Below are positions 2,085-51,410 of a stretch of DNA of 64,000 nucleotides, in pieces. Below the pieces are notes generated by a model. That model was not told the origin of the DNA, ran no database searches, and was given only the letters and a program-made list of their open reading frames with translations. Both the position numbers and the translations under genes were made by a program. Positions within the stretch are counted from its first letter, which is position 1. Each line of letters starts with the position of its first letter. The DNA is from Candidatus Bathyarchaeia archaeon (GTDB taxonomy: Archaea > Thermoproteota > Bathyarchaeia > Bathyarchaeales > Bathyarchaeaceae): NCBI GenBank assembly GCA_035283685.1, contig DATETJ010000010.1, forward strand, positions 1-64,000, given 5' to 3'.

Positions 2085-2500
2085 ACATTGTGAGCTTGCG
2101 TGTTCAACTACAGCATCCAAGCTACTGCTATCTGGATGATGATGTCACTAGAGCGCAGTTTGACGACGACGCCCACACAGCCAATCAAGCACATTCAAAA
2201 AGAGTCGGTATTATTACTGTTTCTAAGCAGAAGTTAACGACACATAAAACAGAAACCAGCTTCGCAATGCCATTGTTGACGAAGCCACGCCTAAACCTGA
2301 CGCAAGACAGGGCGCAAACAGAACCCAGAGCACCATACAAGAACCCAAACAGACCCCAAAATACAAAGCTCAAACTTGTTGATGTCACCCGGAACACTCT
2401 GACGATGACATCCATACAGCCTCTGCCGCAGTCGCAACATGGTAGAAGAAGGCTAAAGGGAATTGGCGCCTTCTTCTTCTGAAATTTCCATTCCCGCAGG
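2085..2500 (+). repeat. dispersed hairpin repeat, copy A
   Basis: This intergenic stretch shares long similarity with 51119-51410 (colinear from about 2208 to 2497) and with 14034-14474 read in reverse. Shared blocks are a GTATTATTACTG motif, a GATGTCAC...GGAACACTCTGACGA block present twice here (near 2140 and 2390), and a terminal hairpin whose 10-bp arms are AGAAGAAGGC at 2444-2453 and GCCTTCTTCT at 2468-2477. The hairpin is followed by a conserved GAAATTTC and a TTCCCGCAG. It lies between tRNA-Leu and the end of the Lrp-type gene. Open frames across it on both strands are probably accidental. Confidence 0.8.
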
Positions 2501-13956: not shown

Positions 13957-14033
13957 GATTTTTTGCTCCCTCTGGCATGAAGACAATGATTCGGTTTTAT
14001 TTAGTTTGTGGTTAGAGGCTAGTACGTTGAGTG

Positions 14034-14474
14034 CTGAAAAATTTTTTTGTGGTGAAAGTGGGGCTTTTCTGGGTGCGTTCTGGGTTCTGTTTTTGGTTCT
14101 GATTTGTGGTTTGGTCGCTGTTTGCTGGTGTTTTAGTGTGACGTTCTATGTTGTTATGCGTGACGTTTAATGTTGTCAAGCGTGACGTTTGCGTATGTTG
14201 CCTGCTCTGCGGGAAAGAGATTTCAAAAGAAGAAGGCGGCTTTTACCTTTAGCCTTCTTCTACCATGTTTCGGCTGTGTTTAGCAGGGTGAAGGCTGTGT
14301 GGATGTCGTCGTCAGAATGTTCCGAGTGACATCATCATCCAGCATGCTAGGCTGGGATCGCTTGGACAGTTGTAATTGAACACGCAGCGTAGACTGTTTG
14401 TGGGTTGAGGGGTTTTTCAGTTGTTATTAACTTCGGCTTGGAATCAGTAATAATACGGAGCTGGTTTCTGTTCA
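14034..14474 (-). repeat. dispersed hairpin repeat, copy B
   Basis: Read on the minus strand this copy has, in order: a GTATTATTACTG block, a GTTCAATTACAACTGTCCAAGC block, the GATGTCAC...GGAACA...TCTGACGACGACATC block, the hairpin (arms at 14228-14237 and 14252-14261), GAAATCTCTTTCCCGCAG, three roughly 22-bp tandem units each starting with a form of AACGTCAC (about 14133-14196), and a tail CACAAAAAAATTTTTCAGCAC. It lies between the divergent aglB and amidotransferase genes. The tandem units and the tail are also in copy C; the first two blocks are also in copy A. No protein-coding frame is convincing here. Confidence 0.8.
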
Positions 14475-49175: not shown

Positions 49176-49189
49176 CTAAATATCCAGCA

Positions 49190-49437
49190 ACATGATAGAA
49201 GAAGGTGTAAGGGGTATAGTGCCTTCTTCTTTTGAAATTTCTTTTCCCGCAGAGCCGCTCAACATACTCAAACGTCACGCATACCAACATTAAACGTCAC
49301 GCATGCCAACATTGAAAGTCACCACAAAACACGAGCCAACAGACCCCAACCCATCAATCAAAGCAAGAACAGAACCCAAAACACCAACAGAAAAACAGAA
49401 CTTTCACCACAAAAAAATTTTCCAGCACCCATACTAA
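49190..49437 (+). repeat. dispersed hairpin repeat, copy C
   Basis: Begins 20 bases after the RmlD-like stop. The hairpin has AGAAGAAGG at 49197-49205 and CCTTCTTCT at 49222-49230, followed by TTTGAAATTTCTTTTCCCGC, then three units of about 22 bp starting AAACGTCAC (about 49269-49325), and a tail CACCACAAAAAAATTTTCC. It matches the second half of copy B in the opposite orientation. The first blocks of copies A, B and D are absent. Its place after a gene end would also allow use as a terminator. Confidence 0.8.
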
Positions 49438-49530
49438 CCCTAACCGTACACAGTTCCCAGTTGTGTCGGTTAACCAAAACACATATTTTATTGACCGCAA
49501 ACCTCTACCTCAGGGGATGCTTACTAATTT

Positions 49531-49932
49531 ATGAAAAGCAAATGGCTCTGGCCACTCGCTCCATTCCTACTTGCAGACACGTTGTTGGCATCCGCCGCAC
49601 TAATATTCCTACAACTAGACCTCATCGTGAACAAAACACTCTACGAATACGGACTCACATTCAACACCAACTGGGCACAACCCTACTGGACAACCATTCG
49701 CCTCGGCCTAGGAGTTCTCGGCATCACCATGATCATCATCGCCTCCATCGGCTACCTATCCATCAGACACACAGGTGAGCAGACTGACAAAGCCAAAGTC
49801 TATATCTGCAAATCCTGCGGAGAATCATGGTGTAAGCCTGACAAGATCCCAAAGGTCAACGGCAAGTTACCCATGCTCAACGTTCTCAAATCATGCGCCT
49901 CATGCAACGAGAAACTCCTAGACATAACCTAA
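49531..49932 (+). CDS. orphan membrane protein with zinc ribbon (YGLQF family, member 2)
   Basis: A 133-residue protein with a first helix (about 8-30), the motif LDLIVNKTLYEYGLTF with NWAQPYW, a second helix (about 57-76), and a zinc ribbon ICKSCGESW...SCASCNEKL. The pattern is that of the 233-residue protein at 33220 without its long linker. A weak TATA at 49483-49490 lies upstream. It follows repeat copy C and precedes member 3, which lacks the ribbon. CCGGT-CCC-ACCGG after the stop can fold as a hairpin. Function unknown. Confidence 0.7.
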   Translation: MKSKWLWPLAPFLLADTLLASAALIFLQLDLIVNKTLYEYGLTFNTNWAQPYWTTIRLGLGVLGITMIIIASIGYLSIRHTGEQTDKAKVYICKSCGESWCKPDKIPKVNGKLPMLNVLKSCASCNEKLLDIT

Positions 49933-49950: not shown

Positions 49951-50631
49951 TTGCCATCATATGCGCAGGGTCTGCACGCATTGCACAACAGGTGCTGCAA
50001 CCTCCAAACACACAGCCACAGCCTAGCACCCTGCATTCAGCTCAATCCTTATCTGAACTTCATATTGCCAAGACGCAACCCTAATCGACCAAGAAAAGCA
50101 AAGAGATTAACCAACTGTATCAATAAAAGGTGGTTCGCCACGAAATCCACTGACGCCAGCCCAATTTCACTGGTAGTCGTCCTAATGGCAGCCTCCTCAA
50201 TGATGTCAATGATAAGCATGCTCCTACTAGACCAGATCGTCCACGGCGAACTCTACGACTACGGCCTCCAATTCAACCGCAACTGGGCAGAATCCTACTG
50301 GACCCTAACAAAAATCATATTCGCCCTAGGATGGTTCAACATAATCGCCGCCATAGGAGTACACTTATACTCACTCGCCTTCAAACGAAAAGAAGTACAA
50401 CAACTCGTAACCGCAGTCCAAGAGGAAATAAACAGAGAACGAACCGCCCAACACCAAAAACCCAGAGAACCACCAATTCTACCCGGACTACCCGAGAAAG
50501 AATACCTAAACCTAGCAAACCCTGAGCCACAACACGAACCAACAAAACAAGAAATAATCGTCACCCAAAACGTCCGCACCACAGGCTTGAAAACGCAAAA
50601 CCCCAAGGAAACATCCACGAACGATTCGTGA
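49951..50631 (+). CDS. orphan membrane protein (YGLQF family, member 3)
   Basis: The conserved part begins near 50125: a helix rich in Ser and Met, LLLDQIVHGELYDYGLQF, NWAESYW, a second helix (FALGWFNIIAAIGVHLYSL), then a Pro/Glu/Lys-rich cytoplasmic tail without zinc ligands. It aligns best with member 1 at 33220. The start is unclear: the longest frame begins at ATG 49951, but its first 55 or so residues look non-coding; an ATG at 50185 would cut into the first helix. The true start may be a rare codon near 50125. Confidence 0.6.
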   Translation: MPSYAQGLHALHNRCCNLQTHSHSLAPCIQLNPYLNFILPRRNPNRPRKAKRLTNCINKRWFATKSTDASPISLVVVLMAASSMMSMISMLLLDQIVHGELYDYGLQFNRNWAESYWTLTKIIFALGWFNIIAAIGVHLYSLAFKRKEVQQLVTAVQEEINRERTAQHQKPREPPILPGLPEKEYLNLANPEPQHEPTKQEIIVTQNVRTTGLKTQNPKETSTNDS

Positions 50632-50951: not shown

Positions 50952-51118
50952 CTACACTGCTATTTCCATGTTGAAATACGCATAAACGCGACAATATAGC
51001 TTTCGGAACCCCTTATCTCCATGCAACCAAGCCTTCCAGCACAACATAGAAGTAGTTCTCAACAAACACGAGACACAGACTACTTCCAAACAGGAACTCA
51101 GCCGCCGACAAACAACCT

Positions 51119-51410
51119 CGGTATTATTACTGATTCTAAGCGTGAGTTAATAACATCTGAAACAGAAACCAGCTCCACAACGCCATCGTTGACGAAGCCA
51201 TGCCTAAACTTGACGCAAGACAGCGCGCAAACAGAACCCACAGCATCATACAAAAACCCAAACAGACCCCAAAAACACAATGCTCACACTTGTTGATGTC
51301 ACCGGGAACACTCTGACGACGATGTCCACACAGCCTCTGCCACACCAAAGGTAGAAGAAGGCTAAAGGGAAATGGCACCTTCTTCTTCCGAAATTTCTTT
51401 TCCCGCACAA
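51119..51410 (+). repeat. dispersed hairpin repeat, copy D
   Basis: Colinear over almost its whole length with 2208-2497: GTATTATTACTG start, ACAGAAACCAGCT, TTGACGAAGCCA, a CAAGACAG...CGCAAACAGAACCCA block, GTTGATGTCACC...GGAACACTCTGACGACG and the hairpin (AGAAGAAGG at 51353-51361, CCTTCTTCT at 51378-51386), ending GAAATTTCTTTTCCCGCA. The tandem 22-bp units of copies B and C are missing. It is in the gap between DUF424 and the 37-codon gene, so it is again intergenic. Confidence 0.8.

Follow-up and report, generated by a model that had tools for sequence, protein, structure and literature searches.

The stretch of DNA under study (the window) comprises positions 1 to 64,000 of contig DATETJ010000010.1, from the assembly GCA_035283685.1 of a Candidatus Bathyarchaeia archaeon, and holds four copies, A to D, of an intergenic repeat family. 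Its gene content agrees with this label to the extent of being archaeal. An earlier inspection of the letters (hereafter the sequence-only reading) had reported one hairpin, followed by shared sequence, at four places; we find the hairpin (H) at all four, with GAAATTTC/TTTCCCGCA after it in each. The spans given for the copies held up in part, in that the hairpins were placed correctly but not every copy fills its span; H alone, or H with its tail and U block, is common. H belongs to a series of palindromic modules that follow one another in order on the same strand; it is the last palindrome of this array and precedes a tail (T) and U. The features in the window are listed below, with the basis of each assignment in brackets.

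2080-2500, + strand: copy A, M4 - M5b/M5-like - M2 - W - M5 - H - tail T, without U (sequence).
2445-2476, + strand: H of copy A, loop class A (CTAAAGGGAATTGGCG) (arm pattern, covariance model).
2477-2500, + strand: tail T of copy A; the family consensus is SSFEISFPAE in the terS frame (family consensus, viral TerS linker).
14010-14467, - strand: copy B, M2 - M4 - M5 - H - T - U (module order).
14229-14260, - strand: H of copy B (arm pattern, covariance model).
49188-49450, + strand: copy C, H - T - U without further modules, ahead of the gene at 49531 (module order).
49198-49229, + strand: H of copy C, with a class B-like loop (arm pattern, covariance model).
49254-49450, + strand: U block of copy C, A/C-rich, with three repeats of ~22 nt (CAACATNNNAAACGTCACGC) and a sharp right end AAAAATTTTCC..CATACTAA (sequence).
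51048-51408, + strand: copy D, M1 - M2 - W - M5 - H - T, without U (module order).
51048-51088, + strand: M1 of copy D (AGAAGTAGT..ACTACTTC type); family consensus EVVV..TTTS (family consensus).
51118-51162, + strand: M2 of copy D (TATTATTAC..GTTAATAAC), with a loop of 15 nt (family consensus).
51291-51335, + strand: M5 of copy D (GTTGATGTC..GACGATGTCC type); family consensus VDV..TTTS (family consensus).
51354-51385, + strand: H of copy D, class A loop (arm pattern, covariance model).

Between copies C and D lie two adjacent, paralogous small membrane-protein-like ORFs (49531-49932 and 50185-50631) without a known Pfam family. Two secreted-type proteins that are 88% identical are encoded upstream of arrays R07 and R44 elsewhere (L049:3914-4432 and L081:3465-3956).

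That other blocks occur in different combinations had been recognized, and this was right but understated: the blocks are palindromic modules in one orientation and in a nearly fixed order, usually [M5b]-M1-M2-[M3/W/M4]-M5-H-tail T-[U or M8]. Spacing is nearly fixed as well (M1-9-M2; M5-20/23-H). M1 (AGAAGTAGTAGTC/GACTACTACTTCT), M2, M3 (GAAGTTGTTGT/AACAACAACTTC), M5b, M8 and H are inverted repeats with triplet-like arms and rigid loop lengths: 15 nt in 60/60 copies of M2, 17 in 27/31 of M1, 14 in 7/7 of M8, and 16 nt in 67/76 of H, whose loops, described beforehand as variable in sequence and similar in length, fall into four classes. The array has a sharp right end, either after T or after a U block of ~180 bp that ends in AAAAAATTTTTC..CATACTAA, and this end usually lies 50-90 bp ahead of the next gene start. 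Some U blocks in G000 (L258-L260; C2:277300, C2:72000, C12:64200) lack H and are preceded by a different common segment, CTGATAAAACAGAGCGAAATT.., apparently a further module.

The family is not confined to the window. The arm motif of H is AGAAGAAGG, and exact GAAGAAGG-N8-24-CCTTCTTC arm pairs number 59 genome-wide, against 0 for a reversed-pattern control; with at most 2 mismatches the numbers are 80 and 1. A covariance model of H built from 17 copies, a kind of search that the sequence-only reading had proposed, gave ~64 strong matches in the genome, corresponding to ~64 full copies. About 80 copies were fetched with their flanks, as stretches rather than whole genomes. Based on approximate gene calls made with a simple codon-usage script, all copies lie between genes, as had been claimed for the four, the sole exception being one weak copy beside a tRNA. 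The types of intergenic region occupied match those of the background (p=0.40); copies are slightly biased towards co-orientation with tandem gene pairs (31:13, p=0.01), and no gene family common to the neighbours of the copies was found. Array density is ~1 per 35 kb, a spacing similar to the length of the longer viral contigs, possibly by coincidence. To date, we have found no archaeal interspersed repeat of this kind described in the literature.

By DNA similarity, the full element was found in this genome alone: 0/26 family members contain it, nor does any of 256 class members convincingly, two g29 matches in that class being ascribed to chance in A/C-rich sequence. Intergenic palindromes that share the arms but not the loops do occur in other genera (G016, G012, G020, G022, G011, G002, G017). 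A triplet-arm pattern, which does not demand complementarity and serves as an index only, was found 65 times in this genome versus 8 for the reversed control, 29 versus 3 times in G012, and 60 versus 1 in G119, which belongs to another family; enrichment is patchy, being near background in most genomes, and copy number likewise varies between related species (65, 29, 21, 16, 7, 0-1). At one orthologous intergenic region in g13, the AGAAGAAGG arms are kept in both G012 and G017, with the loop and most of the flanks diverged past alignment. Many triplet-arm hairpins, shared between species of the genus g13, are clustered within 15 kb (L265/L268, G012:C1:1023001-1038461, G022:C1:247992-263360). 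G119, from another family of the order, has a dispersed element of ~130 bp (L238-L249) composed of a GTTGTTGTTG..CAACAACAAC hairpin (VVVV..YTTTT) and a TTGTG..CACAA hairpin, which follows T-rich stretches and, once each, a 5S rRNA-like and a tRNA-like sequence.

Within the genome, the arms are the constrained part of the element. Among the 37 copies with both M5 and H, arms differ at 8.5% of sites versus 33.6% elsewhere, and between the closest copies 0-1 of 37 arm sites but 15-30 of 105 other sites have changed. It should be noted that the conservation of the H arms is partly ascertained, the copies having been fetched by H; the arms of M1, M2, M3 and M5, which were not used for fetching, are also more conserved than their spacers, with M5 less extreme (identity 0.83-0.86 versus 0.69 for the spacer). 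Compensatory changes in the hairpin, which the sequence-only reading had suggested looking for, occur only in about the number expected by chance: among 318 arm changes there are only 3 Watson-Crick pairs in which both bases have changed (3/2403 cells), and A-C mismatches (99) occur no less often than G-T (78), so that there is no G-U bias. Within the genome, the conservation of the arms is thus a constraint on sequence and not on pairing. The idea of a family of structured RNAs gained no support here from the pair counts on every module, from folding of the whole element, or from Rfam, in which the hairpin family had no match at two thresholds.

The origin of the palindromes is indicated by viral DNA. 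The M1 pattern matched three IMG/VR contigs, each time inside a gene adjoining that of the large terminase, and searches with this gene yielded 23 and then 58 relatives, nearly all of which carry an in-frame palindrome in the linker after a helix-turn-helix (HTH). The codon types include AGAAGTAGTAGTC..GACTACTACTTCT (EVVV..TTTS), AAGTTGTTGTT..AACAACAACTT (KVVV..TTTS), GTAGAAGAAGG..CCTTCTTCTTC (VEEG..PSSS) and AGAACAACAACA..TGTTGTTGTTCT (KEQQQ..CCCS), so that at the protein level the arms covary as VVV/TTT, EEE/SSS and QQQ/CCC. The palindrome is selected at the nucleic-acid level: 45/54 viral palindromes surpass at least 95% of 60 synonymous recodings, and pairing stands at 90.7% for the nine arm pairs counted across 20 viruses, whose covariation scores 0.311 versus 0.078 when shuffled (0/500) and at most 0.225 in slid controls. 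Other patterns were less productive. The exact H-plus-tail pattern was absent from genome contigs and viral contigs, and it missed the viral genes because it used the host tail, while these genes have the arms with a different tail; 11/12 viral matches to the H pattern were unrelated sequence, and ~100 matches of the M2 pattern in viruses were taken as AT-rich chance.

The palindrome-bearing gene lies just upstream of, and overlaps, that of TerL (PF03237, PHROG 2). The HTH of its product is GcrA/Myb-like (PF07750 at 27 bits; PDB GcrA chains), and an AlphaFold2 model predicts this HTH, a disordered linker at residues 51-64 (pLDDT <50) that coincides with the palindrome codons, and a helical hairpin. 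A layout of HTH, linker and helical part has been described for TerS (PMC9611059). The protein had no match to a small-terminase family; its position, predicted layout and GcrA/Myb-like HTH indicate that it is probably the small terminase, TerS. The amino acid at residue 41 changes with the arm triplet (GTA-K 9/14, GTT-M 7/8, CAA-Q 4/4), and no other column carries as much mutual information; the residue falls within the helix modelled at 36-45, which is predicted to be the recognition helix. When C-terminal identity is matched, pairs with the same arms are more alike in their HTH (30/2000 label shuffles). Both relationships are confounded by phylogeny.

Host and viral sequences are homologous. 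Host H copies of loop class D match viral terS DNA over 47/49 (R65), 47/50 (R67) and 44/47 nt (R78), with E values down to 2e-16; R60 and R84 match over 78 nt at 81%, including terS sequence upstream of the palindrome; and the viral segment GAAGAAGGCCTTAAGGGTATGTCACCTTCTTC recurs over all of its 32 nt in the host at C3:7120-7151. M1 and M3 share arm matches of 16-21 nt with viral terS, homology beyond the arms being restricted to H, and no viral counterparts were found by DNA for M2, M4, M5, M5b, M8, W or U. The host tail consensus TTTTGAAATTTCTTTTCCCGCAGAG with its preceding codons reads SSFEISFPAE, like the viral SSSFQLPAELPS and TSEIRLPAELPS, and the consensus readings of M1, M3 and M5 are EVVVNKHAAQTTTSEQKP, EVVVANPSTSTTTSKQPQP and VDV..TTTSTQ, short pieces for which HMM support is weak. 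In G012, an intergenic hairpin (L275) reads NVVVDPPYPPTTTN and is followed by a frameshifted TerS C-terminus (HMM E 3e-15), and weaker TerS traces were detected at two more loci of the genus (L278 of G022, 6e-7; L162 of G012, 4e-4); by HMM, the G000 stretches contained no TerS coding remnants. In many host copies the terS frame holds stop codons, such as TAA in loop class A, showing that their coding sense has been lost, and conservation is higher in the arms than in the spacers. Together, the DNA matches and the G012 hairpin fused to a decayed TerS C-terminus argue that the family derives from viral terS palindromes, and for H, M1 and M3 we regard a terS origin as very probable.

The view that we favour, and hold to be somewhat probable as a whole, is that the host hairpins are chromosomal copies of the terS palindrome of head-tailed viruses, probably pac-like and still read, most likely by viral terminase. 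In the viruses, the palindrome, encoded in-frame between the HTH and the helical core, would be a recognition site of the terminase bound by the TerS HTH, and by analogy with known packaging systems we consider such a pac function likely. Segments of several terS types (at least those with GTA, GTT and GAA arms) may then have been copied into intergenic DNA, where, no longer coding, they would have multiplied into ordered composite arrays. We infer that the host copies would serve as terminase-binding sites of several specificities, which could titrate viral terminase or start packaging on host DNA, possibly to the benefit of the host; since the arms have outlasted the spacers, these sites are probably still read. 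Among the options of the sequence-only reading, a multi-protein binding site comes nearest to this proposal, given the palindromic arms, the rigid spacing, the sequence-level constraint and the viral HTH helix that tracks the arm type, although the viral terS origin had not been foreseen. Whether the host copies act as decoys or are relics, each is no more than a tentative possibility, and it is rather doubtful that the arrays are a standing antiviral device in which packaging-site palindromes of several virus types divert the terminase of an invading virus into binding or cutting host DNA.

Several other explanations deserve consideration. The copies could be neutral relics, that is, terS fragments that came with viral DNA and were duplicated by recombination or by transposition of an unstated kind, having no present function and owing their conserved arms to the search definition and to recent common sources. 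Such an account, which we consider rather doubtful too, fits the U blocks without H, which imply that arms can decay, as well as the background-like intergenic types, the patchy copy numbers and the lack of a common neighbouring gene family. However, the arms that were not used for fetching also surpass their spacers in conservation, the closest copies differ almost only outside the arms, and the g13 hairpin has kept its arms at an orthologous place between flanks that no longer align. Less likely still is that the family is a composite non-autonomous mobile element of the BOX/NIME type, spread by a palindrome-recognizing enzyme, with terS being its viral home or one of its insertion places. 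The ordered and partly optional modules, the sharp right end and the ~64 dispersed copies confined to one genus would suit such an element, and the mobile element that the sequence-only reading had proposed may survive as a mode of spread, but the hallmarks of mobility were not found. In 33 U-type copies, whose left ends are uncertain, there were no target-site duplications (mean longest match 6.18 versus 6.36 when shuffled), nor did we find terminal inverted repeats spanning the whole element, near-identical recent copies, or, in g13 at 93-94% identity, a clean empty site, orthologous hairpins being conserved instead. A Y1 (RAYT) transposase, PF01797, had no match in the 98% complete genome, in which control searches were positive. 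Moreover, among dozens of divergent terS genes the viral palindrome is not scattered but occupies a single, fixed codon position. A 9-bp direct repeat, ATCAGTTCA, does flank a hairpin segment in G017 (L122, ~2860-2960) that is missing from the orthologous region of G012, and this single case could be a target duplication or chance.

The view that the palindrome works as RNA, in terS mRNA and in host transcripts as structured RNAs or mRNA hairpins, may be supported by the location of all modules on one strand, their A+C-rich linkers (0.62), the co-orientation with tandem genes, a fold z of -2.0 and the covarying arms of the viral palindromes. We nevertheless consider it improbable in light of the chance level of compensatory changes in the host genome, where A-C mismatches are as common as G-T, the rigid loop lengths and the empty Rfam search. 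Finally, the direction of transfer might be reversed, with a site of the host DNA-binding architecture existing first and viruses subsequently building it into terS. The far higher copy number in the host and the presence of the arms across genera of two families are in line with this scenario, but fossil TerS coding sequence lies beside the palindrome at host loci and the host tail reads as a terS linker, making it the most improbable of these explanations.

Packaging sites provide a close parallel to the terS-derived copies that we favour. The gene terS contains the pac sequence in phage P22 (PMC9611059) and its relatives, and packaging of host DNA can begin at pseudo-pac sites on the chromosome (PMC6687093). 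The palindrome of the archaeal viruses would likewise lie in a putative small-terminase gene beside TerL. It differs, however, in being a palindrome with variable arms, and the host sites here form dozens of intergenic arrays, ordered and of several types, whose sequence points to descent from terS DNA and not to chance resemblance. In architecture alone, the family resembles BOX of Streptococcus pneumoniae (PMC3049150), which is also composite, modular, intergenic and palindromic, with a fixed order and scores of copies; the ends of BOX resemble an insertion sequence (PMC3049150), but the present modules lead back to a viral gene. REP/BIME sequences with RAYT are GTAG-tagged, short intergenic palindromes (PMC2817692, PMC3733652). 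A GTAG head is present at H in 51/76 copies and absent from M1 and M3, and at H it is accounted for by the terS codons GTA-GAA. REP/BIME form head-head/tail-tail pairs, unlike the co-oriented modules in ordered arrays seen here, and the lack of a PF01797 match in the genome speaks against REP/RAYT. The family shares with prokaryotic MITEs (PMC10969869) its small, dispersed and non-coding nature, but neither target duplications nor element-spanning terminal inverted repeats were found.

How TerS recognizes DNA is an open question in genome packaging. A palindrome coded in the terminase gene itself, a protein sequence that varies with the palindrome and a candidate specificity residue could make this question approachable.

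In summary, here we have tied an unexplained family of intergenic repeats to a viral gene and arrived at a reading that is testable. The hairpins also tie uncultured head-tailed viruses to archaeal hosts, the hosts being assigned from shared sequence. Depending on their role, the dozens of host copies would represent an antiviral decoy of a novel kind, a means of packaging host DNA that is built into the genome, or an extensive fossil record of earlier infections. If the first of these is true, the arrays would constitute a heritable decoy memory of multiple viruses that functions without spacers or nucleases.
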